Shown here: one piece after another, positions 5,239 to 35,474 of the stretch | How the letters are laid out: each line of letters begins with the position of its first letter | How positions within the stretch are numbered: position 1 is the first letter of the stretch | IMG/VR virus record: IMGVR_UViG_3300022673_000085 | Span: 1-35,474 of that record | DNA from: a virus | Strand: one strand, 5' to 3' | Length of the DNA: 35,474 bases | Made by a program: the position numbers and the translations under genes | The notes under the pieces: generated by a model | Told to the model about the DNA's origin: nothing | Databases searched by the model: none | What the model saw: the letters and a program-made list of their open reading frames with translations, nothing else

Positions 5239-5569
5239 CCGTCTCCCCAACTTCCTCACGGCACAACAACACCAGCTCACGCCCGCGCCCATCCGGATCC
5301 ACCGCACTCTCGATGTCCAGGATCTTCGAATCATGCAGTAACCGGTTCAGCGGCCCTACGTCATCCCGGTAGCGGATCTTCACCCGGTGCGTCACCTGCG
5401 CCACCTCCACATCTGCGCCCGACACCACCCGCTCCCCGGCCGGAGCCATGCGCACCTCGCCCCACACCGTGGCCAGCGTCGACCAGGACAAGATCGACGC
5501 GCCCAGGCCGTCGCGGCTCTCAGACGCCTCTTCGATCGTCACCCGATGTCGCAGCCGTCCCGCTCTCAT
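5234..5569 (-). CDS. Head-tail joining protein (head closure, SPP1 gp16 / phage H_T_join family), 111 aa
   Basis: The opening MRAGRLRHRVTIEEASE and the following stretch (dGLGASILSWSTLATVWGEV) are the classic signature of the phage head-tail joining family, which closes the connector and provides the docking surface for the tail. The rest is a beta-barrel with THRVKIRYRDDV and a C-terminal strand with RGRELVLLC. The start ATG 5569 coincides with the stop of the upstream connector gene. The length is normal for the family. Confidence 0.9.
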   Translation of the reverse strand: MRAGRLRHRVTIEEASESRDGLGASILSWSTLATVWGEVRMAPAGERVVSGADVEVAQVTHRVKIRYRDDVGPLNRLLHDSKILDIESAVDPDGRGRELVLLCREEVGETA

Positions 5570-6126
5570 CAGTACGCCCGATCTGTCATCACCAGCGAAT
5601 CAAACGCCAGCGGCACATCATAGACCGGCATATCGCTGCCCGTCTCTCGATGCTCATACCAATGCGCCGCCAGCAACAGGATCGCCTGCCGGTAGCGTTC
5701 TGGAACATCGTCCGCGGCATCGCCATAGCCCGCCACGAACGTCACCGTGATCACCGACCTGGCCAGACGGTCCGGCCACGAAGCCCCATCCGCCAGCACC
5801 AGCCGCTCCCGCGCCGTCTGCACCACATATTGATCGCTGGCCAGCGTCTGCGCATCCCCGGCCGTGTCCGTATAGCCAATCGATGACACGCTCTGCAACG
5901 GCGGCCGTGGGATGTCGATGGCGCAGCCCGGCCAACTGTCCAGCGTCAGCGCCAGCGTCTGCGTGATCAGCGCCCGCCGGCTCACCAGCTCCGTCTGCTC
6001 GCGCGCCGCCATGACCAACGCCTCGATCAGATCGTCCTCATCGGACACATCGATCCGCGCATGGGCCTTGAAGTCGCTCACCGTTACCGGTTCCGCAGCC
6101 GGCGCCGTCACAATCCGCAGGTACAT
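5569..6126 (-). CDS. Head-tail connector (HK97 gp6-like adaptor), 185 aa
   Basis: The protein matches the adaptor family that forms a 12-13-fold ring beneath the portal. The N-terminus has the family pattern, PVTVSDFKAHARID followed by D-E-D-D-L-I-E-A and a helix with AAREQTELVSRRALITQT. The centre has beta strands around DIPRPPLQSVSSIGYTD. The C-terminal helix has VPERYRQAILLLAAHWYEHR, another family hallmark. It starts at ATG 6126, four bases after the preceding gene, and its stop overlaps the next start. Confidence 0.9.
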   Translation of the reverse strand: MYLRIVTAPAAEPVTVSDFKAHARIDVSDEDDLIEALVMAAREQTELVSRRALITQTLALTLDSWPGCAIDIPRPPLQSVSSIGYTDTAGDAQTLASDQYVVQTARERLVLADGASWPDRLARSVITVTFVAGYGDAADDVPERYRQAILLLAAHWYEHRETGSDMPVYDVPLAFDSLVMTDRAY

Positions 6127-6441: not shown

Positions 6442-6831
6442 TTAACTACTCGCAACGATGCCAACGCCCCGCAACGCCGCCAGGATCGCGTTGGTCTGCG
6501 CCGTGAGCTCCTCGCACAGTTCCAGCAGCTCGCTCACCGTCGGCGTTGAGCCATCCGCCACCGTCACGGCGCCGTCCGGCGTGATCGACGGATCGTTGCC
6601 CGTATACGTGATCGCCAGCGTACTGATCGCGCTCGCCTGCGTCCCATCGTCCGTGATCGAGCCGCCGGCCACCACATCCAGTTCGCCCGCGGCCCCGATC
6701 GTCAGCGTCCCATCTACAGTCAACCCGGCCGCGCTGCCCAGCGTCGTCGTGCCATTCATGACCAGCGCGCCGTCACTGTCGATCGTAAGCGTGTCGCCGC
6801 CCTGGTTCTTGTAAATTGGTACGTTCGCCAT
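6442..6831 (-). CDS. Probable head fibre/decoration protein, beta-repeat, 129 aa
   Basis: ATG 6831 has a perfect GAGGAGAAGT ribosome site. Residues 8-70 are repeating short beta turns rich in Gly, Thr and Asp (TLTIDSDGALVMNG, LTVDGTLTIGAAGELDVVAGG), the pattern of a beta-helix or head fibre. The C-terminus carries a helix, VSELLELCEELTAQTNAILAAL. Together with the next upstream gene it lies just after the major capsid gene, where decoration proteins are encoded. Assignment is from composition and position. Confidence 0.65.
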   Translation of the reverse strand: MANVPIYKNQGGDTLTIDSDGALVMNGTTTLGSAAGLTVDGTLTIGAAGELDVVAGGSITDDGTQASAISTLAITYTGNDPSITPDGAVTVADGSTPTVSELLELCEELTAQTNAILAALRGVGIVASS

Positions 6832-6842
6832 ACTTCTCCTCC

Positions 6843-6882
6843 TCACGCATCACGTTTCACGTCTTCACGCTTCACGTTTCGC
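6843..6882. repeat. TCACG-type intergenic repeat array, copy B
   Basis: The gap between two head genes consists of the units CACGCATCACG, TTTCACG, TCTTCACG and CTTCACGTTTCGC. It closely matches copy A at 5205 and copies C and D at 8753 and 9434. Confidence 0.8.
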
Positions 6883-6888
6883 TCTACC

Positions 6889-7335
6889 CTACGCCTCCGC
6901 CGGCGAAGCCACCGCCGTCAACTGGCTCACCTCGGCCGCCAACTGCGTCACTGCCGGCGCATGCGCGCCATACAGGATCGCAATCGTATCGCCGAACGCA
7001 ATGTTCGCCGTGAGCGACGCCAGGTTCGCCTTCAGATAGCGCTCCTGCGGCCGGTACACATCCACGATCAACAGCGTACTGTTCAGATCGTCGTTGATCG
7101 CGCACGTCGCCGTCGCCACCGCGCCCGAAAGCGCCGCATAGGTCCCGCCGCTCGTATCGCACTGTTTCGCCGTGAGCGTCGCCACCCCCGTCGCCACCGA
7201 ATCGGTGATCGGCGTCACGAAGATGCAGCCCTCATAGCCGCTGGTGTCCACCAGCGCGCTGTCGCTGTCCGTGTCATCCGCCGCCGCAACCGCCGCCAAG
7301 GCGTAATACCACTTTAAATCGTTCCCCATATTCAT
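6889..7335 (-). CDS. Probable capsid decoration or minor head protein, 148 aa
   Basis: ATG 7335 has the ribosome site AGGAGAAG. The sequence is Ala/Thr/Val-rich and beta-predicted, beginning MNMGNDLKWYYALAAVAAAD, with a core that looks like an Ig-like or jelly-roll domain (CIFVTPITDSVATGVATLT). A similar opening (a short motif, then D-L-K-W-Y-Y-A-L) is found in small proteins after capsid genes in other siphophages. The C-terminal 25 residues are Ala/Val/Gln-rich. No catalytic motif is visible. Confidence 0.65.
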   Translation of the reverse strand: MNMGNDLKWYYALAAVAAADDTDSDSALVDTSGYEGCIFVTPITDSVATGVATLTAKQCDTSGGTYAALSGAVATATCAINDDLNSTLLIVDVYRPQERYLKANLASLTANIAFGDTIAILYGAHAPAVTQLAAEVSQLTAVASPAEA

Positions 7336-8788: not shown

Positions 8789-9415
8789 TCACACTTCCGC
8801 CAACCGCAACACACGCACCCGCCGCGCCGCCTGCGCCCGCATTTGGCCCCCAGTGCTATTCTCACCGGCCCGCCGCGCCCGCAGCTCTGCCGGAATCTCG
8901 GGGATAACCCCGTAGATATCATCATGTCTCGCATCCACAGACGTCGCCTCATACGCCGGCCACGTCACCGGCGAGATCTCGTACAGCGTCCCATTCGTCA
9001 CGCGCCGCACCAGCGTCCCATCTGTCTCCTCACTCCACGTCATCCCATTCGGGAGCACCTTGAACCCGAAGGACATGCCATCCACATCCCGGCGCCGGAT
9101 GCTCTCATACGCGTCCCGGCCCACCTGTGTATCAGGCACATCCAGCTCAAAGCGCACGCCCAGACTCTCATCGAAGAGCCGCAGCGTCCCTGAAGCCGTC
9201 CGGCCCAGCACATCGCCCGGGCCATGCTGCCACAGCGCCCGCACATCGCCGTCCGCCACCGAATCGCTGAACGCGCCCGGCTCGATCACCTCCCGGAAAT
9301 CGAAGATCGGCGCACTCATCTGCCCATAGACCACCGCATACCCCGTGATCATGGGCTGCTCACCCTCCACGGCCCGCAGCTCCGCCCGTTGGAAGTACCT
9401 CAGTTCTCTGTCCAT
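8789..9415 (-). CDS. HK97-type prohead protease (peptidase U35), 208 aa
   Basis: This serine protease matures the prohead by cutting the capsid delta domain. The family signatures are present: ITGYAVVYGQ near the start, WQHGPGDVLGR with catalytic His64, and DVDGMSFGFKV with catalytic Ser115, spaced as in the family. TLYEISPVTWPAYEAT is the conserved C-terminal strand. The start ATG 9415 follows AGGTGAACTT; the upstream in-frame Met at 9433 lacks such a site. It sits between the portal and capsid genes, the canonical order. Confidence 0.95.
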   Translation of the reverse strand: MDRELRYFQRAELRAVEGEQPMITGYAVVYGQMSAPIFDFREVIEPGAFSDSVADGDVRALWQHGPGDVLGRTASGTLRLFDESLGVRFELDVPDTQVGRDAYESIRRRDVDGMSFGFKVLPNGMTWSEETDGTLVRRVTNGTLYEISPVTWPAYEATSVDARHDDIYGVIPEIPAELRARRAGENSTGGQMRAQAARRVRVLRLAEV

Positions 9416-9433
9416 AAGTTCACCTATTACCAA

Positions 9434-12157: not shown

Positions 12158-13855
12158 TCATAACACCAGCACCCCGCGCCCCTCATAGACCGAATCCACA
12201 TCCACCGCCAGCGTCGCCCGGTACAGCCCCATCATCAGCGCCACCATCCCGTCGATCTTCTCCGTCGACTTGCCCTTGTCCGGCTTCTTGTTCCCGGCCG
12301 GGTCCTCGGCCCACGTCAAATTACTCGCCATCCACGCCAGCACCGGGTTGCCGCCATGGTTGATCGCCCGCTTGGCCACCGCCGCCTCCAGCTTCTGCGC
12401 CGCCGGATTCATCGACACATAGCCCTGCCGGAACTGGATCAACACATCCTCCGCCACGCCCCCGGCCTGCAACTGGTTGCTCAACCACGTCGCATTCCAC
12501 GGGTCATACGCCAGCTCCTGCACATCAAATGTCTCCAGATCCCGCTCGATCTGCGCCTGGATCCACGCATCGTCGATCACATTCCCCGGCGTCAGCTCCA
12601 CAAAGCCCTGCCTATCCCACACATCAAAGGGCACCCGGTCCCGCCGCACCCGCTCCTCGATGTTATCCTCCGGAACCCAGAACCGGCACAGCACCGGCCG
12701 CACCCCATCATCATCCGGCGCAAACACATAGACCGCGGCCGTCACATCCAGCGTGCTCGACAGGTCCACCCCGACCCAGCAGCGCCGGCCGGCCAGGCTC
12801 GCCTCCTCGACGGGCCCATGATTGCACAGCGCCCACTTCTCCGGAGAGATCGCCCGCCGCTGCGCCGTCGTCCATACGTTCAACTCCTTCGTTAAGAAAG
12901 CGTTCAACAATCCCGGCTGATTTTTGGCCTTGCGCGCCTTGTCCCGCAATCCGTCCCCATACTTCGACACGCCCAGGTTCGGGTTCGCCTTGACCCATGC
13001 ATCCTCGTTGTCCCATGGCTCCAGTTCATCCGTCTCCACATCCCGGTCCAGGCTGTAGATCAGCGCAAACCACGCATCATCCACCAGCGTCCCGTCCAGA
13101 ATACGCTCGCTATAATCATGCTGCTGTTTACAAAATGACAGAGAATTGTGGCCGGCCGTCGTGATCGTGAAGATGAGCGGCTGGTCCCGGCTCCCCGTCC
13201 CCGTCTCCAGCACATGGTACAGGTCCCCATCCGGATGCGCATGCAGCTCGTCGATCAGCGCCCCATGCACATTCAACCCATCCAGCGTCTCCGAATTGCT
13301 CCCCACCGGCTCATACTTGGAGAACGTCGTCTCATTGTGGATGTTATTCTTCAGCACCCGCAGCTCGGCGCTCAGCATCGACGACTGGCGCACCATCCGG
13401 ATCGACTCCTGGTGCACAATGCGCGCCTGCTCAATCTTCGTCGCCGCCGTGTAGATCTCCGCGCCCGGCTCCCCATCCGCATGCATCAGATAGAGGCCCA
13501 CGCCCGCCGCTAAGGTGCTTTTGCCGTTCTTCCTTGCCACCTCCAGATAGGCCGTGCGGAAGCGCCGCGTCCCGTCCGCCCGCATCCACCCGAACAGCGA
13601 CCAGAGCGCAAACTGCTGCCACGGTTCCAGCGCCACCGGCGACCCGGACCAACGCCCCTTGCTATGCCGCAACACCAGCGGAAAGAACGCCAGGATGCGC
13701 TTGGCCGCCCGCTCATCGAACCGTAGCCCGCGCGCCTCGCCCGTCTCCAGGTCCCGGCGATGTCGCTCGCACGCCAGCCGCACCCACCGGTTCGCCACCT
13801 GCCGGCCGGCCAGCACATCATCGCAATAGTCCTCGGCCAAGAACTCGATCGCCAC
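12158..13855 (-). CDS. terL: Terminase large subunit, 565 aa
   Basis: This is the ATPase and nuclease motor that cuts and packages phage DNA through the portal. Walker A is ARKNGKST (residues 107-114), Walker B is ALIDE (199-203), and a C-motif-like ITTAG follows at about 231. The nuclease domain begins with the RNase H-type strand VGVDLSS (Asp364), with further acidic sites at YDPWN (about 472) and EKIDG near the C-terminus. The length is normal for the HK97-type family that pairs with P27-type small subunits. It starts with GTG 13855, six bases after a small gene of unknown function. Confidence 0.97.
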   Translation of the reverse strand: MAIEFLAEDYCDDVLAGRQVANRWVRLACERHRRDLETGEARGLRFDERAAKRILAFFPLVLRHSKGRWSGSPVALEPWQQFALWSLFGWMRADGTRRFRTAYLEVARKNGKSTLAAGVGLYLMHADGEPGAEIYTAATKIEQARIVHQESIRMVRQSSMLSAELRVLKNNIHNETTFSKYEPVGSNSETLDGLNVHGALIDELHAHPDGDLYHVLETGTGSRDQPLIFTITTAGHNSLSFCKQQHDYSERILDGTLVDDAWFALIYSLDRDVETDELEPWDNEDAWVKANPNLGVSKYGDGLRDKARKAKNQPGLLNAFLTKELNVWTTAQRRAISPEKWALCNHGPVEEASLAGRRCWVGVDLSSTLDVTAAVYVFAPDDDGVRPVLCRFWVPEDNIEERVRRDRVPFDVWDRQGFVELTPGNVIDDAWIQAQIERDLETFDVQELAYDPWNATWLSNQLQAGGVAEDVLIQFRQGYVSMNPAAQKLEAAVAKRAINHGGNPVLAWMASNLTWAEDPAGNKKPDKGKSTEKIDGMVALMMGLYRATLAVDVDSVYEGRGVLVL

Positions 13856-14086: not shown

Positions 14087-14557
14087 TTATTCTCCCACCG
14101 CTGCATCCAGCAGATCCTCTACCGTCGCCGGCCGCTCATTCTCGCCCACATTCAGCCGGCTGCGGCTCCCCGGCGACATCCCGAACTCCGTCAGAAAGCT
14201 CTTCATCTGTTTCGCCGCCGTCGTCGCCACCGACCACCACGGATTCAGCACCGGATAGCCCTTCTCCGTCACCGTGATCATGCTGCCCTGCGCCAGCTCT
14301 TCATGCGCCCGCACCCAGTCCGCCCACGCCTGGCAATACGCAGCCAGCGCGGCCCGGTCCACCTGCGTCAGCAGCCCCAGCTCAAACAACTGCTTCGCCA
14401 TCCGGTTCCACTCCTTGCGCGCCTCGCCCTGCAAGTGCTTCGGGCACGGCGGCCGCTTCTTCTTCGGCCGCGGCTCGGCCCCGTTCAGCGGCCGCTTCCC
14501 CGGATTCCCGGCCAATTCCTTCATCCGGGTCGGTGTCCGCGGCCGTCCCGCCGGCAT
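14087..14557 (-). CDS. terS: Terminase small subunit, P27 family, 156 aa
   Basis: This protein recognises the packaging site on phage DNA and hands it to the large subunit. The N-terminal MPAGRPRTPTRMKELAGNPGK and LNGAEPRPKKKRP are classic P27-family openings. A helical part with EARKEWNRMAKQLFELGLLTQVDRAALAAYC follows, then NPWWSVATTAAKQMKSFLTEFGMSP, the conserved end of the domain. It has a GGGGGAGGGT ribosome site. The order HNH nuclease, small terminase, large terminase, portal is typical of HK97-like siphophages. Confidence 0.94.
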   Translation of the reverse strand: MPAGRPRTPTRMKELAGNPGKRPLNGAEPRPKKKRPPCPKHLQGEARKEWNRMAKQLFELGLLTQVDRAALAAYCQAWADWVRAHEELAQGSMITVTEKGYPVLNPWWSVATTAAKQMKSFLTEFGMSPGSRSRLNVGENERPATVEDLLDAAVGE

Positions 14558-14678: not shown

Positions 14679-15236
14679 TCACGACCATAGGATTGCGCCA
14701 AATTCTTTGAAGCTTTCACGGAACTTCGATCGATAGTTGCCGAGATAATAGATGATCTGTGATTGAGTTGGGCGCTCTTGCACGTTGCCAGCTTCATCGA
14801 TGTATTGAATGCGATGGTCAACGAGACAGATCGCGATCTCCAGCTTTGCGATTCGCTGGAACGCTGGCTGATATACGACATTCATATTCACCAGCATGAT
14901 TGCCTGGCTAACGCGCCGGACGACATACTCCTCATGCAACTTGGCTGCCCATTCGGCTGCTTGACCTGGATAGTCTGAGTATGGTGGATTGAGCCAGACA
15001 TTGCCAAACCAGGGGCGGATCAGCCCATTCGTTGCCCGTGTAAAGTAGGCGGCTGCCCCCACTACCTCATTGGCCTTGGCACAGCTTGCCGGGTCCAGAT
15101 CGATCTTCCCCATGAGGTTACGGGCTGCATCCACATAGCGTCGCGGGGTGTAATGCTCGGACGTTTTTCCAGGGCCAAAGTGCTGGGACACCCCCCTACG
15201 CTTTTTCGCCTTGCGTCTTTCGACTGTGGCACTCAT
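14679..15236 (-). CDS. Phage DNA N6-adenine methyltransferase (Dam-type), 185 aa
   Basis: The enzyme would transfer a methyl group from S-adenosylmethionine to adenine in phage DNA. Residues 28-50 read HYTPRRYVDAARN followed by IDLDPAS, a typical opening of the phage Dam family. GNVWLNPPYSDYP contains the catalytic NPPY (83-86). The remaining C-terminal half is a helical/strand mix with LVNMNVVYQPAFQRI. ATG 15236 has AAGGA eight bases upstream and overlaps the end of the HNH gene by 41 bases. It could protect phage DNA from restriction or regulate gene expression. Confidence 0.9.
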   Translation of the reverse strand: MSATVERRKAKKRRGVSQHFGPGKTSEHYTPRRYVDAARNLMGKIDLDPASCAKANEVVGAAAYFTRATNGLIRPWFGNVWLNPPYSDYPGQAAEWAAKLHEEYVVRRVSQAIMLVNMNVVYQPAFQRIAKLEIAICLVDHRIQYIDEAGNVQERPTQSQIIYYLGNYRSKFRESFKEFGAILWS

Positions 15237-15546
15237 GACATAATCCTTGCAGGTTCTCCCACGCATCAGTACCGCCTGCCCGCTTGGGTACAATGTGATC
15301 GACATCGGTGGCGGCAACGGTCCGGCCTTCGGCCTGGCACTCAACGCAGAGCGGATTGGCGGCGAGGAACATCTTGCGCAGCTTTTGCCAGCGCCGATCA
15401 TAGCCACGTGCGGATGCACTGCCGCGCTGCCGGTCATACTCGCGCTCGCTATGTCGTCGACGGGGACCGCAGGCAGAGCAGACGCCATCTCGCACCAGGC
15501 CCTTGCAGCCCGACCGGTTGCAAGCCGTCGGCGCTTTGACTGGCAT
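15196..15546 (-). CDS. HNH endonuclease, packaging-associated, 116 aa
   Basis: Residues 9-26 contain four cysteines (CNRSGC and CSAC) forming a probable N-terminal zinc knuckle. The HNH core follows: NPLCVECQAEG (Cys67, Cys70), DHIVPK (catalytic His84), ENLQGLCHECHSRKT (Asn98, Cys103, His104, Cys106). Such small HNH proteins next to terminase genes cooperate with the terminase in cutting DNA in HK97-like phages. The start ATG 15546 overlaps the stop of the upstream membrane protein gene (TGATG). Confidence 0.93.
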   Translation of the reverse strand: MPVKAPTACNRSGCKGLVRDGVCSACGPRRRHSEREYDRQRGSASARGYDRRWQKLRKMFLAANPLCVECQAEGRTVAATDVDHIVPKRAGGTDAWENLQGLCHECHSRKTQGEKA

Positions 15547-15725
15547 CAGCGCTCACGCCAACGCAACAGCAAGTCGCCCACCCCAGCATAATCAGTGCCA
15601 AGAAACGCATACGTGCCCATGACAAAGAAAACCCCAACGACCAACAGGATGATCCCGGCGCCGATCACGCTCCAACGTTGGCGCTCCGTGAGCGTACCCC
15701 ACCAATCTCGCAGCAGTTGATCCAT
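15546..15725 (-). CDS. Single-helix membrane protein, 59 aa (holin candidate)
   Basis: This short gene starts at ATG 15725 after GGGGGAGGTA and ends in a TGA that overlaps the HNH start. The product starts MDQLLRDWWGTLTERQRW, has one clear membrane helix (about residues 19-43, IGAGIILLVVGVFFVM) and a short basic end, LLLRWRER. It follows the CHAT-like membrane protein by 14 bases and belongs to the same late operon. No holin family is recognised. The ribosome site and exact overlap make it a real gene; its role is inferred only from topology and position. Confidence 0.78.
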   Translation of the reverse strand: MDQLLRDWWGTLTERQRWSVIGAGIILLVVGVFFVMGTYAFLGTDYAGVGDLLLRWRER

Positions 15726-15739
15726 TACCTCCCCCTATG

Positions 15740-16618
15740 TCATGAGTCGTCGTGCGTGTTCTGTACATCAAGCGAAAAGCCCATGCCGGTCATAAAGAAC
15801 CAGGCAGCAAGCGGGAAGGCGAACATAGATATTATCGCTGCTGCAACCGAGTTGATGCCCCAGTGCTCACCGATACCGCTGCTCAGGAGCCAGATACTCC
15901 CCACGAACAAACCATAGCCGGCCAACCACAGCAAGATATTCCTTCTGGAATGCCTTATCTGATAATTGCTGCGCACATCCAATACCAACTCGTTGTAGCG
16001 GCTGCCCAAATCAATCTCTATGTCGTCAATGCGCTCGGCAAAATGCTTCTCGATCTCATCGATGCGCTTGTTTATACGGCGATATCCCCTGCGGATCTCG
16101 AGCATGATCTCGTCATTTGGCCGCAATTTGCCGTGCGATCCACCGTTCAGATAACGGAACACGTTTTCTTTACCACCCGGCTTGGCCAGTTCATATGCCT
16201 CGTACAATGTTTTGCCCGCTGCCAGATGTCTGGCCAGCGCGGCCCCCGTGCGATAGGCTACCTTGACCTTTACTTCGGTGATCGTACAGATGATCGGCAT
16301 ACGTATTTCATCGTGTATATCGATAGCGATTCCCAAACTAGAGCAGGAATTGATAAAGAGCGCCAACCCATCAAGGCTACGCAGTTGCTGCGTCAGTTCA
16401 CTTGTTGAAAAGAATCCATCATAGAGTTTGATCCCGTCTCGCGACCCATGCGCCATGAACCACAACATATCCAACCCTGGATGAAGATTGTCGATCAGGT
16501 TGCTAGACGTGGCATCTGGCCCGAGCAAGACACGGGGCGACAATGCGTTAATCACATCCTGCACTTCGGGCCGGGCGAAATTCAGTTCAGATTCGGGCGC
16601 GACAAGCAGCACATTCAT
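15740..16618 (-). CDS. Caspase/CHAT-like protease domain with two membrane helices, 292 aa
   Basis: Residues 1-150 look like a caspase-fold (CHAT-like) peptidase: MLWFMAHGSRDG supplies the candidate catalytic His58 and LALFINSCSSLGIA the candidate Cys92, about 34 residues apart with a helix between, as in the fold. RTGAALARHLAAGKTLYEAY is the usual following helix pair. Residues 172-220 are a charged coiled-coil linker. Residues 228-248 and 256-280 are membrane helices, with a short polar C-terminus. Start ATG 16618 was chosen because the fold begins there; a TTGCTC/GATACT promoter-like pair with 18-base spacing lies just upstream and no ribosome site is seen, suggesting a leaderless message. 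It opens the late operon. A role in lysis, host killing or superinfection exclusion is inference. Confidence 0.75.
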   Translation of the reverse strand: MNVLLVAPESELNFARPEVQDVINALSPRVLLGPDATSSNLIDNLHPGLDMLWFMAHGSRDGIKLYDGFFSTSELTQQLRSLDGLALFINSCSSLGIAIDIHDEIRMPIICTITEVKVKVAYRTGAALARHLAAGKTLYEAYELAKPGGKENVFRYLNGGSHGKLRPNDEIMLEIRRGYRRINKRIDEIEKHFAERIDDIEIDLGSRYNELVLDVRSNYQIRHSRRNILLWLAGYGLFVGSIWLLSSGIGEHWGINSVAAAIISMFAFPLAAWFFMTGMGFSLDVQNTHDDS

Positions 16619-16740
16619 ACGCAGAGTATCCAAATAGAAAAAGCCACAGAGCAACCGGGCGCCGGCGCCGTGTGGCTCAGTATCAGTAATGCGCCGGCTC
16701 CCCACGATTCTCGCCTGCTGCGCATAGGATGGGAGCCAAC

Positions 16741-16780
16741 AAAAATGGGGTGGGAGTCCCAGTTTGTCGGCTCCCACCCC
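16741..16780 (-). terminator. Rho-independent terminator at the end of the early operon
   Basis: GGGGTGGGAG (16780-16771 on the minus strand) and CTCCCACCCC (16756-16747) form a perfect 10-bp stem with a 14-base loop, followed by ATTTTTGTTGG. It closes the leftward early transcript after the 141-aa gene and separates it from the CHAT-like gene. Confidence 0.92.
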
Positions 16781-16781
16781 A

Positions 16782-16798
16782 ACTATACAAAGTATAGT
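16782..16798. promoter_or_regulatory. Perfect 17-bp palindromic operator-like site
   Basis: ACTATAC AAA GTATAGT is a perfect 7-bp inverted repeat with a three-base centre, placed between the end of the 141-aa gene and the terminator stem. Its size fits a dimeric helix-turn-helix protein. No function is shown. Confidence 0.6.
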
Positions 16799-16811
16799 AC
16801 AACCGTTCTAA

Positions 16812-17237
16812 TCATTCAACTTCGATCGCCACGACGAAGGTTTTCAGCTCTGAATCCCAAGTCACACATTCAAACTCGGCATTGACCGGCGCCATATCGG
16901 TTGGAATGCTATGGTTTGCACGGACGACAGTGTACCCGTGCTTTTCCAAAAATGCTCGCACGATATCGTTGAATGTCGGCCACGCTTTGGCAAGGATCTT
17001 GCCTTCCTCCGTCCACAACTCGCCATTGGCCGTTGATGTGGAAACTTGGCGATGCAGTCTGTAGATGCGCCCATCCCGGTCAGCCGTGAGCGTGAGTTGA
17101 TAGTCACGCCAGCCGATACCGTCCCGACCGGACCTGTCCCTACTTGACGCCATCAAACAGACCAGCGAAGGAGGTGGGCAGACTTCCATGAATACAAATA
17201 GACCCGTGCAGTCAATGACAAGCGGTAGATTCTTCAT
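16812..17237 (-). CDS. Hypothetical early protein, 141 aa
   Basis: ATG 17237 has the strong ribosome site GAGGAGA and overlaps the end of the GIY-YIG gene by 26 bases. The product starts MKNLPLVIDCTGLFVFMEV, has cysteines in its first 30 residues (Cys10, Cys20, Cys27), then a mixed domain with WRDYQLTLTADRDGRIYRL and DIVRAFLEKHGY. I do not recognise a family. It is the last gene of the early operon, before the terminator at 16741. Confidence 0.65.
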   Translation of the reverse strand: MKNLPLVIDCTGLFVFMEVCPPPSLVCLMASSRDRSGRDGIGWRDYQLTLTADRDGRIYRLHRQVSTSTANGELWTEEGKILAKAWPTFNDIVRAFLEKHGYTVVRANHSIPTDMAPVNAEFECVTWDSELKTFVVAIEVE

Positions 17238-20670: not shown

Positions 20671-20916
20671 TTAGTTGCGATAGAGCACAGAACGATTGAA
20701 CGCAGGTAAGCGGAAGGGTGGGCGCTGTCGTAGTTGCTGATTGGCGTCCATAGCCGCGGCCAGAGACCGGCGCAACGCGACAACGCGCAGGTTGCATTGG
20801 CGCAGATCTGCTTCGCTCTGCCGGCGCCGCCGGCGCTCCAGCCAACAGGCGACACAAGCGGCGACCAGTACGCAGACCAGGGCGGCGATGATAACGGCGA
20901 CAATTGGATTGGGCAT
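20671..20916 (-). CDS. Small membrane-anchored coiled-coil protein, 81 aa
   Basis: ATG 20916 has a GAGGAGTAACTG ribosome site. Residues 1-24 are one hydrophobic helix (VAVIIAALVCVLVAACVAC), followed at once by a basic stretch (LERRRRRQSEAD) and a coiled-coil-like helix to about residue 65. The layout resembles an inner-membrane spanin, which is anchored at its N-terminus. No partner outer spanin is visible and the gene lies next to the replication initiator, so this is only a possibility. Confidence 0.6.
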   Translation of the reverse strand: MPNPIVAVIIAALVCVLVAACVACWLERRRRRQSEADLRQCNLRVVALRRSLAAAMDANQQLRQRPPFRLPAFNRSVLYRN

Positions 20917-23795: not shown

Positions 23796-24809
23796 CTAGC
23801 TGGACAAAACCTGGTCAACGTCAGGCCACCCGGAATCGATGGGTTTATGTCGCTTGGAAAGATAAACTTGGGTCGTGCCGATGTGGCTGTGGCCTAGGAA
23901 TTCGGAGATCTCCAGCACATCCTGCCCCTTGCCGTCGCGGTAGCGCAGTGCGGCCGCCGTGTGGCGCAACGTGTGCACCGTGACGTCCGCCGGATCCACG
24001 CCGGCATGCACAAATCGCCGTCGGATGATCTGCAAGATGTTGGTCGACGTCATGGGCCGGTTGGCCGGCAAGTCCGCGCGCACGGTGGGCAAGTTGCGGC
24101 CCCGGTCCGGATAGATGGGCCGGAAGACGTAATGGCCGTCACGCCCAGGCCATTCCATGACCTGCGTGAAATGGCAGATGGCGTGGTAGGCCGGTGGGGG
24201 CAGCTCGTCCGTGCGCGCCTTGCCCCCTTTGCCTCGCCACGTGTAATAGTAGCGATGCCGCTCTTCGTCCACCTCGATGTCGGCCCAACGCAGCATCGCG
24301 ATCTCCTGGTTGCGCCGGCCCGTGTAGAGGTAGGTGGTGATCAGCGCATAGTCTCGGGCCCCAGCGCGCGACTCGACATTGATGCGTCGCAGCGCACGCT
24401 TCACCACCGCCACGTTCAACGGCCGGCTGTTCTGGAAGTCCTGGCGTCCGGGCCGGTCGACCGGCGAAAACGGATTGTTCCTGGGTCGCCCATTGGCGTC
24501 GTTGTAGAGACTCTCTTCGCCGGCGCCGTTGACAAACGTATACTGCTGGATGACGAACGTATAGAACGAGCTCAAAGCCGCCAGCTTGCGGCGAATCGTG
24601 GTGTTGGCCAGGCCCTGGGCGCGTAGGTGCGCCGCCCACGACTGGGCATCTGCACTGGCCACCAGCCACGGCTCCTTGGCCACGAAGGCAAAGAACTGTT
24701 CATAGTCGCGGCGATAGGCAGTGGCAGTATGGAGGCTGCCGCTGCGCCGCGTCTTGGATTGCAGCCAAGCCTCGGTGGCATTGGCCCAGGCGCTCGAGTT
24801 GTCCGTCAT
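23796..24809 (-). CDS. Tyrosine recombinase 1, 337 aa
   Basis: This site-specific recombinase has a SAM-like N-terminal domain (residues 1-90) and a complete catalytic core: Arg165 (TGRRN), Lys197 (GKGGKAR), His279 and Arg282 (HTLRH), His307 (GHSHI) and nucleophile Tyr316 (TQVYL). Length fits an integrase or XerD-like enzyme. ATG 24809 is preferred over the upstream GTG 24860. It heads the leftward early operon. Upstream, at 25031-25110, lies a T-arm-like tRNA fragment that could be its attachment site. The window has a second, unrelated recombinase at 28702. A role as integrase or as multimer resolvase cannot be separated from sequence alone. Confidence 0.92.
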   Translation of the reverse strand: MTDNSSAWANATEAWLQSKTRRSGSLHTATAYRRDYEQFFAFVAKEPWLVASADAQSWAAHLRAQGLANTTIRRKLAALSSFYTFVIQQYTFVNGAGEESLYNDANGRPRNNPFSPVDRPGRQDFQNSRPLNVAVVKRALRRINVESRAGARDYALITTYLYTGRRNQEIAMLRWADIEVDEERHRYYYTWRGKGGKARTDELPPPAYHAICHFTQVMEWPGRDGHYVFRPIYPDRGRNLPTVRADLPANRPMTSTNILQIIRRRFVHAGVDPADVTVHTLRHTAAALRYRDGKGQDVLEISEFLGHSHIGTTQVYLSKRHKPIDSGWPDVDQVLSS

Positions 24810-25030
24810 CGCTTCTTTTTCGTGAAGTCCGATTGTGAATGCCGGGGCTAGGATGATCACCCGGCTGCGGGAACTCTTTCCATATTATTCCCTTTGGGCA
24901 GTGAGAGGATGCCAGCCTGGACGGTCTACTGGATTATTTTCCGATGGGCGCCGGTCAATGCCGTGCGCTGGTCGTGCTCGTCTTTATCCGTCCCTTTAGC
25001 CATCGTGAGCACACCCCATGGCAAAGATCT

Positions 25031-27530: not shown

Positions 27531-28409
27531 ATGCGTCTCCTTGGCCGAATTCTGTTGTGGCTGTTCTTCTGGCCCATCATGGTGCCGATTGCGTTGTGGC
27601 GTCGCGGATGGATAGCCAAGATCGGCGCCCTTGTCTGGGCAGTGGTCGGCGGCCTGGTTGTCCTATCCTTCATCGCCAGCGCTCCGGAGCCAGCGCCAGA
27701 CAGCGAACAGGCCGCCCGTGCCGTCGAACCGGTTCCAATCACAATCGCGCCAACAGATACACTGCTTCCAACAGATACCGCCACCGTGGAACCAACGGTC
27801 GCACCGGCTACGGAAACGCCCTTGCCGGCAGTGATCCCAACTGAAACCGAAGCACCGCTAACGACGACGCCTGTGCCAACGGCAGCCGCGCCCAACACAG
27901 CGACGCCTATCCCGGCCGGTAACCAAGCCAACCAGAACGCCAACCTGCGCGCCGGGCCAAGCACCGATTTTGATCTGATTGGCAGTGTGGCTGCCGGCGA
28001 CACGCTCGATATAGTTGGCCAGAACGCGACCGGCGAGTGGTTTCAGTTGGCCTCGGGCGCATGGATCGCAGGCTTCTTGATCGACGGGGATCTCGGTGGG
28101 TTGCCGGTCGTTGCAGCGCCGGAACTGCCGGAACGGTCGATCGTCGTGCCGGTGGAGCTTGGTGTTGCAGAGGATAGCGCCGGCGAACCCAACCCGCAAG
28201 CATTTGAATGCGAGGATGGTTGTGCCGTATCCCCAGACCCATCCTGTTCGATCAAGGGGAACGTGAACAGCCGTGGAGACCGGATCTATCACATGGAAGG
28301 CTGGCGCGACTACAATCGCACCGACGTCAAGCCAGAAGAAGGAGATCGTTGGTTCTGCACCGAACAGGAAGCCGAAGACGCCGGATTCCGCAGGCCGCTG
28401 AGGACTTGA
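27531..28409 (+). CDS. Membrane-anchored SH3b/sunset-domain protein, lysogenic conversion candidate, 292 aa
   Basis: Residues 1-22 and 29-50 are two hydrophobic helices. Residues 55-132 form a Pro/Thr-rich extracellular-type linker. Residues 134-185 match a bacterial SH3b domain (NANLRAGPSTDFDLIGSV, GDTLDIVGQ, EWFQLASGAWIAGFL). Residues 226-290 contain paired cysteines (CEDGC, CSIKGN) and a sunset-type domain, with CSIKGN, GDRIYHMEGW and GDRWFCTEQEAEDAG as hallmarks. It is the only such secreted-type gene here and lies in the lysogenic region. ATG 27531 has AAGGA about ten bases upstream. It probably modifies the host surface in lysogens. Confidence 0.82.
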   Translation: MRLLGRILLWLFFWPIMVPIALWRRGWIAKIGALVWAVVGGLVVLSFIASAPEPAPDSEQAARAVEPVPITIAPTDTLLPTDTATVEPTVAPATETPLPAVIPTETEAPLTTTPVPTAAAPNTATPIPAGNQANQNANLRAGPSTDFDLIGSVAAGDTLDIVGQNATGEWFQLASGAWIAGFLIDGDLGGLPVVAAPELPERSIVVPVELGVAEDSAGEPNPQAFECEDGCAVSPDPSCSIKGNVNSRGDRIYHMEGWRDYNRTDVKPEEGDRWFCTEQEAEDAGFRRPLRT

Positions 28410-28701: not shown

Positions 28702-29625
28702 ATGACATTGAGTGACGCAATTGAGGGCTTCTTGCTCTACAAGGCCGCGACAACTAGCAAGAACACAGTGCGAGATTACCGGAACACGCTGCGCCAATGG
28801 AGCGAATTTTTGGAGGGCGATCCGGACGTCGAGGCGCTCGAGCTGCAGCACATTCAGAGATTCCTTTACCACCTGCGTGTGGACCGCAAACTGGCGCCGA
28901 AGACCATCAAGAACGCCCACACCGGTCTGTCTGCTTTCTTCACGTGGTTGGAACGAGACCACGGCATCCCACATCTCATTCGTGGCCACATCCCATCACC
29001 GAAGGCGAACCCACCGGAGATCATCCCACTGACCAAGCGCGATGTGCGTGATCTATTGTGGGCATGCAACCGCTCGGCGCCGAGCCGCCGGGTGCCGGCC
29101 GGGCAACACAGGCCAACTCGCTTCAGAGATCGGGCCATTGTCCTCTTCCTGGTCGATACCGGTGTGCGCGCCAGTGAACTATGTGATCTCAAGATTGGGG
29201 ACGTCGATATGGATACAGGGGCCGTCCAAGTGCGGAATGGAAAAGGGGACAAGGCCCGCACGACCTACATTGGCACGGTGGCGCGTGAAGCGCTGTGGCG
29301 CAATCTATCGGAACGCAAATTCAAAGCAGCCGACGATCCGCTGTTCGCAACCAGCAGACGCCAACCCATGGACCGCGACGCCCTACGCAAGATGCTGTTG
29401 GCTGCCGGCCGGCGAGCGGAGCTCACCGAGCCTGTGGGGCCGCACCGGCTGCGCCATACGTTTGCCATCACCTATCTACGCAATGGCGGCGATATCTTCA
29501 CGTTGCAACGCCTGCTGGGCCATAGCAGCCTCGACATGGTCCGCAGATACCTGGCAATCGCCCAAGTAGACGTGGCCGACGCCCATCGACGCGCATCGCC
29601 GGCCGACAACTGGCGCCTGGCATAG
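28702..29625 (+). CDS. int: Tyrosine recombinase 2 (integrase), 307 aa
   Basis: The protein has an N-terminal SAM-like DNA-binding domain (residues 1-95) and a full catalytic set: Arg156 (TGVRASE), Lys184 (NGKGDKAR), His248 and Arg251 (HRLRH), His274 (GHSS) and Tyr283 (RRYL). Its length is close to XerC/XerD types. The tRNA-Val attP lies directly upstream, the standard arrangement for phage integrases. AGGA lies 11 bases before ATG 28702. It converges on the tail operon, with only six bases between the two stops. It is the likely integrase; recombinase 1 could have another job. Confidence 0.94.
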   Translation: MTLSDAIEGFLLYKAATTSKNTVRDYRNTLRQWSEFLEGDPDVEALELQHIQRFLYHLRVDRKLAPKTIKNAHTGLSAFFTWLERDHGIPHLIRGHIPSPKANPPEIIPLTKRDVRDLLWACNRSAPSRRVPAGQHRPTRFRDRAIVLFLVDTGVRASELCDLKIGDVDMDTGAVQVRNGKGDKARTTYIGTVAREALWRNLSERKFKAADDPLFATSRRQPMDRDALRKMLLAAGRRAELTEPVGPHRLRHTFAITYLRNGGDIFTLQRLLGHSSLDMVRRYLAIAQVDVADAHRRASPADNWRLA

Positions 29626-35114: not shown

Positions 35115-35474
35115 CAGATCACCGTGAGAAAGCGCGGACGATACCAGACAGACATGTCAAAGGTGATGTTTTCGTCATAGCCGCCCGACGCGCTGGCGCA
35201 CATCATGAACCCGTGCGTCTGGTCCGGATAGAGCCTAAGTGGCCCAAAACGACGGTAGACGTCCGGATAATGCACGGACCCGGTGTCAACGTATGCGTGA
35301 TCCTCGATCGCATCGTCCACAATAGTGTCATTTGGCTCTAATTGATAGGTCAACCGGTAATGCCGCAGATTGTCCGCGGGCATCGACTGCAACCAAGCGA
35401 TATCGTCGTCGCCGTCTACGGTTTCACTCTGCACGCCCAATTTAATCTCAACTGAGCTCGAGGATTCATCGTGA
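35114..35474 (-). CDS. Tail-tip protein, 3' part of the 419-aa gene across the contig junction
   Basis: This segment is the C-terminal end of the tail-tip gene whose 5' part is at 1-998; the last 99 bases are the repeat of its bases 1-99. The final residues, YDENITFDMSVWYRPRFLTV, end at a TGA that overlaps the ATG of the 663-aa gene. A shorter frame beginning at an internal Met (35440) is not a separate gene. Confidence 0.85.
   Translation of the reverse strand, partial: HDESSSSVEIKLGVQSETVDGDDDIAWLQSMPADNLRHYRLTYQLEPNDTIVDDAIEDHAYVDTGSVHYPDVYRRFGPLRLYPDQTHGFMMCASASGGYDENITFDMSVWYRPRFLTVI
35376..35474. repeat. 99-bp terminal direct repeat, right copy
   Basis: This is the exact copy of bases 1-99 described for the left end. 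Joining the copies restores a 420-codon gene reading from 998 through base 1 to 35114 on the minus strand. Confidence 0.95.

Follow-up and report, generated by a model that had tools for sequence, protein, structure and literature searches.

Organization of the P0001 Locus

In the window (the whole stretch of viral DNA analyzed, 35,474 nucleotides), the late operon opens with P0001, an intact ORF of 292 aa enclosed by a 355-codon open frame. An earlier note on this DNA had reported the ORF at 15740–16618 with no strand stated; it is real and lies on the minus strand. The features of the locus, all on the minus strand, are as follows.

16791–16819, minus: promoter-like TTGAAT-17-TATACT, weak (9/12), just upstream of terminator 1
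16740–16783, minus: terminator 1 (stem GGGGTGGGAG/CTCCCACCCC, then ATTTTT), −26.6 kcal/mol
16636–16682, minus: terminator 2 (GAGCCACA...TGTGGCTTTTT), −23.8 kcal/mol, about 20 nt ahead of the start codon
15740–16618, minus: P0001, gene for a predicted membrane-anchored CHAT-like protease, 292 aa (intact ORF and CHAT profile evidence)
16154–16618, minus: predicted CHAT/caspase-fold domain, residues 1–155 (profiles, secondary structure order, and VIA-align to 8tl0 over residues 1–155)
16448–16450, minus: predicted catalytic His57 codon (invariant in alignments)
16343–16345, minus: predicted catalytic Cys92 codon (invariant in alignments)
15953–16117, minus: charged coiled-coil linker, residues 168–222 (continuous helix 168–247 in the model; weak Mu Gam-like coiled-coil match)
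15878–15940, minus: predicted membrane helix 1, about residues 227–247 (hydropathy; preceded by an Arg-rich RHSRRN flank)
15770–15859, minus: predicted membrane helix 2, about residues 254–283 (hydropathy)
15546–15725, minus: P0002, 59 aa, one membrane helix, strong Shine-Dalgarno (C-terminal 22 residues 64% identical to the start of L002)
15196–15546, minus: HNH endonuclease of the late operon (PHROG 144, 2e-32)
14087–14557, minus: terminase small subunit, TerS (PHROG 83)
12158–13855, minus: terminase large subunit, TerL (PHROG 9)

The gene order therefore runs from the two terminators, both of which sit between an upstream 136-aa ORF and P0001, through P0001, P0002, and HNH to TerS and TerL; the neighbors of P0001 are the 136-aa ORF (no family match), GIY-YIG, P0002, and HNH. 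The proposal in the earlier note that P0001 heads the late operon after a terminator holds, with two strong intrinsic terminators preceding the gene and late genes following it, as does its 59-aa membrane protein, P0002, which starts 14 bases past the P0001 stop codon. The P0002 ORF and the HNH start overlap by one base. The GC content of P0001 is lower than that of the structural genes, and its ribosome-binding site is weak (−3.1 kcal/mol versus −12.3 kcal/mol for P0002).

With terminator 2 so close to the start codon, there is little room for a promoter belonging to P0001 itself, and the regional count of promoter-like sites around the gene did not rise above that of shuffled sequences. Its position behind the terminators at the operon head implies that P0001 is probably made late. 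The lysis genes of the lambda late region come after a Q-controlled terminator, a layout that the P0001 locus resembles; like the holin genes that open the late operon of lambda, P0001 follows late terminators and, in this genome, precedes TerS.

The Phage and Its Probable Host

An exact 99-bp direct terminal repeat (positions 1–99 and 35376–35474) marks the window as complete, with a circular map of about 35,375 bp. The genome encodes terminases, HK97-type head genes, a tape measure, and a tail fiber, along with two integrase-like ORFs, a repressor-like ORF, and an HK97-type prohead protease-like ORF (8789–9433), the last four named from their sequences; read in this way, the phage is an HK97-type temperate one. 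In sequenced genomes, the terminase has relatives in Chloroflexi and Ardenticatenaceae MAGs (52–53% identity) and a more distant one in Cohaesibacter, and the host is therefore probably a member of the Chloroflexota. These two host-like Chloroflexota genomes, G001 and G002, contain 10 and 5 CHAT matches, respectively.

Evidence for a Divergent CHAT-like Domain in P0001

Sequence profiles and, less firmly, a fold comparison support the assignment of P0001 residues 1–155 to a divergent CHAT/caspase-fold (clan CD) domain with a predicted His57/Cys92 dyad, in agreement with the CHAT/caspase-like identity proposed in the earlier note. Of the His/Cys pair named there, both motifs (AHGSRDG and NSCSSLG) and Cys92 are present as described, but the histidine given as His58 is, by count, His57. 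The Pfam CHAT model matched the whole of P0001 with E 0.0019 and residues 1–167 with E 0.0006; the corresponding scores of 18.1 and 19.8 bits lie under the curated cut-off of PF12770 (24 bits), and P0001, whose N terminus coincides with the first core strand of the predicted caspase fold, has no counterpart to the first ~100 positions of the model. On its sequence, P0001 is hence assigned only to the wider superfamily, as a divergent CHAT-like protein, and not to PF12770 in the strict sense. Nothing in PHROGs, PADLOC, or NCBIfam matched P0001, and no SAVED sensor domain was matched in it by Pfam or NCBIfam; PADLOC also gave no match for P0002, and neither protein matched a holin family in PHROG or Pfam.

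The direct tests of P0001 itself are the Pfam matches and an hhalign comparison with shuffle and in-window controls, which together showed profile homology to known CHAT domains. Against the host CHAT alignment, P0001 scored 30.7, above both the best of 200 shuffles (24.0) and the next best window protein (16.6; 39 window proteins). A three-row profile, A3, matched the CHAT alignment from two Chloroflexota genomes with E 2.2e-6 and had as its top PDB match 8tl0 (E 0.028), a SAVED-CHAT structure (PMC11417357). The second-round extended profile A7 matched 8tl0 with E 7e-12 and the host CHATs with E 8.8e-13, values that owe part of their strength to the other CHATs included in this profile. A tblastn search with P0001 returned weak matches to haloarchaeal plasmid proteins (E 0.005 and 0.3), whose own CHAT scores are weak. 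When eight divergent CHAT-like sequences were aligned, H57 and C92 were among only six invariant columns, and predicted strands at 51–54 and 87–90 precede H57 and C92, respectively, giving the His-then-Cys dyad arrangement of clan CD. Protease activity is a prediction for P0001.

A template-free AlphaFold2 model of P0001, made without an alignment, is of low confidence (pLDDT 49.5). Its elements follow the order strand-helix-strand-helix-strand-(His)-helix-strand-(Cys)-strand-helix-helix, as predicted for a caspase fold, and beyond the core it has one long helix and then a second helix at the C terminus. The charged coiled coil and two C-terminal membrane helices that the earlier note described correspond to a long charged helix at about residues 168–222 and to hydrophobic stretches at about 227–247 and 254–283. 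VIA-align placed 8tl0 first among 999 chains (Z 7.8, rmsd 4.3, 148 residues; Z values under 8 can be common), and the rows also include TPR-CHAT and several caspases, mixed with flavodoxin-like chains. We regard this alignment of a low-confidence model as supporting, not decisive. The structural comparison suggested in the earlier note gave a divided outcome: the full-length model aligns best with 8tl0, but a model of the core (pLDDT 39.4), likewise built without an alignment, gave a Foldseek ranking with no caspase above unrelated rows. These Foldseek rows (flavodoxin-like and other unrelated folds) were uninformative.

By profile and fold alignment together, SAVED-CHAT of the type III CRISPR/CBASS systems (8tl0) is the solved structure closest to P0001, with Cys and His in matching places. 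In contrast to SAVED-CHAT, which has a SAVED sensor, P0001 carries a coiled coil and two membrane helices and is encoded in a phage late operon, with no CRISPR or CBASS genes seen with it. The Chloroflexota PF12770 CHAT proteins share the catalytic core and order of elements of P0001, whereas P0001 falls below the Pfam cut-off and is a small, stand-alone membrane form with no sensor or repeats.

Distribution of P0001 and Its Operon Position among Related Phages

The earlier note had suggested looking for the same domain pair in other phages; the CHAT gene was absent from all 42 related virus records searched, many of which are fragments. This distribution suggests that P0001 is an accessory gene and not a lysis effector shared by the phage group. 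The nearest relative, L002 (TerL 82%), has a P0002 homolog, and its contig begins inside that gene, so that the position at which a CHAT gene would lie falls outside it.

The order terminator, membrane protein(s), HNH, TerS was seen in L016, L018, L027, L031, and L044, with membrane helices in the slot called by hydropathy only and the terminator scan run without a shuffle control. In L018, promoter-terminator pairs precede a 99-aa three-helix protein, and the slot ORF of L031 has five helices; L036 has a five-helix ORF ahead of TerS with no clear HNH, and L011, L013, and L073 have no membrane ORF at that slot.

Back-translated peptide searches found no relative of P0001 in the viral and genome collections and, with A3, A5, or A6, none in viral contigs; tblastn of P0001 in phages gave only chance matches. 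Among 50,697 phage records, a host CHAT query found one match, an unverified 7.5-kb record with an ordinary CHAT, and another Chloroflexota CHAT core used as a tblastn query in phages found none; at the sensitivity of the host CHAT query, carriage of CHAT by phages looks rare. The phylum search with A3 returned CHAT proteins, together with L117 and L119, which look like false matches. Five weak matches from the phylum search with P0001 were judged to be chance or coiled-coil matches, and L126, considered as a P0002 relative, was a chance match.

Possible Roles of P0001

Computation supports the family of the N-terminal domain, its dyad, the two membrane helices, the order of the genes, the terminators, and the accessory status of P0001. 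The most fitting description is of a CHAT-like protease, accessory and membrane-anchored, whose gene is placed late, in a lysis-cassette-like position. Killing or permeabilization of the host, a block to superinfection, and lysis, the roles suggested in the earlier note, are candidates. Our leading guess, a tentative one with exclusion close behind, is that P0001 aids host killing or lysis late in infection. The coiled coil and two-helix C-terminal anchor would hold the protein at the cytoplasmic membrane; polymerase passing the terminators, probably by antitermination, would lead to its production late, with the terminase and capsid genes. The protease head, presumably cytosolic, would then act at the membrane on a protein of the host or of the phage, whose cleavage, perhaps with the two-helix anchor and P0002, a possible partner, would help to kill the cell or to open it as infection ends.

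Late placement argues for action on the host late in infection, and the first-gene-after-terminator position, occupied by small membrane proteins in several relatives, leans toward lysis or late killing. The accessory status of P0001 argues against an essential lysis effector: the 42 related records are without CHAT, so these phages lyse by other means. Also against a lysis role are the weak ribosome-binding site and promoter evidence, and the possibility that P0002, at 59 aa, is a holin on its own. Class II holins have two membrane helices, as does P0001, but at 292 aa P0001 is far larger than a holin, has a protease domain, and matches no holin family.

No holin or endolysin was recognized among the scanned window proteins, and a search of the complete genome with four endolysin families found none, which fits a lysis role. 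All four families are, however, missing from 26 of 28 records (this phage among the 28), so their absence says little about P0001. The argument that a phage without an endolysin must use its CHAT protein as the lysis enzyme was dropped, since the tested endolysins are missing from CHAT-less relatives as well.

Exclusion or abortive infection is possible, if somewhat less probable than late killing or lysis: anchored in the membrane and produced from the prophage or in the course of infection, the protease would lie dormant until a competing phage triggered it to kill or arrest the cell, as Lit does. CHAT domains are known in the anti-phage systems SAVED-CHAT and TPR-CHAT, and the accessory status of P0001, its GC content, and the integrase-like and repressor-like ORFs of a temperate phage all suit such a role. 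Latent phage-excluding proteases encoded by prophages exist. One is the Gol-Lit exclusion protease of prophage e14, which P0001 resembles in being encoded by a prophage and in joining a predicted protease to a link with cell death. Lit, which cuts EF-Tu, is of the zinc type with an HEXXH motif (PMC3014915); that motif is absent from the P0001 sequence. Against exclusion, P0001 has no sensor domain, no recognized sensor gene adjoining it, and no PADLOC match; the two upstream terminators and scant promoter room mean that expression in a lysogen is not expected; and the gene lies within the late operon, with 14 bases between it and its downstream neighbor.

A counter-defense protease, which during infection would cleave an immune or stress protein of the host at the membrane, for example in the CHAT-rich conflict systems of the host, is unlikely. 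Counter-defense genes are common phage accessory genes, and G001 and G002 contain CHAT matches, but counter-defense genes are usually expressed early whereas P0001 is placed late, and no CHAT domain is known to us as an anti-defense protein.

A more specific form of late killing or lysis, which we consider improbable, is that P0001 is a protease-gated lysis protein made from the holin position: a single chain would combine a caspase-like domain with a two-helix pore or anchor and, once triggered, e.g. by cleavage of itself or of P0002, would open the host membrane as infection ends. Bacterial gasdermin systems link a caspase-like protease to the membrane; P0001 differs in carrying protease and membrane helices in a single chain, and no gasdermin gene was recognized beside it, the neighboring 136-aa ORF having no family match.

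That P0001 processes virion or host proteins with no killing role, for example by trimming a phage membrane or head protein, is very unlikely: it shares an operon with head genes and looks like a protease, but a prohead protease-like ORF is already present, two membrane helices are ill-suited to head assembly, and relatives manage without P0001. Least probable is a decaying, functionless captured host gene, for which the failure of any search to find a close relative and the weak Shine-Dalgarno can be cited, and against which stand the intact 292-codon frame, the retained predicted catalytic residues, and the tight operon spacing.

Elsewhere, CHAT proteins have been described chiefly in bacterial immunity and cell death, where CHAT proteases act as sensor-switched execution proteases. 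The presence of a sensor-less, membrane-anchored CHAT protein in a phage late operon would imply viral capture of a cell-death protease, put to use in the life cycle of the virus or against its rivals, and P0001 would offer a way into the study of lysis in Chloroflexota phages, in which the tested endolysin families are so often missing. Protease gating, if true, would show a virus applying the logic of programmed cell death, from caspase to membrane pore.

Other Features of the Phage and Its Relatives

A tail gene spans the join of the circular map, and two tyrosine-recombinase-like ORFs (named from sequence) on opposite strands, 23796–24860 (minus) and 28702–29625 (plus), flank the repressor region. 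At 27531–28409 (plus), a membrane or secreted SH3 protein with a Thr/Pro-rich stretch (Pfam SH3_3; PHROG moron membrane protein) is a possible lysogenic conversion gene. Among the relatives, L027 has a response-regulator-like ORF (5460–6002) in the late operon between terminator and HNH, and in L031 (6461–9984) and L036 (6452–9963) two small-terminase-like ORFs flank two long ParB-like ORFs before TerL. In L044, an 87-aa ORF (6800–7063) just ahead of HNH encodes a coiled coil and a C-terminal membrane helix, a shape like that of XhlA-type holins. In the window, an 81-aa ORF at 20671–20916 (minus) has an N-terminal membrane helix and a weak Rz-like spanin match (E 0.001), and the 17.5–21 kb stretch that holds it is rich in membrane-protein ORFs.
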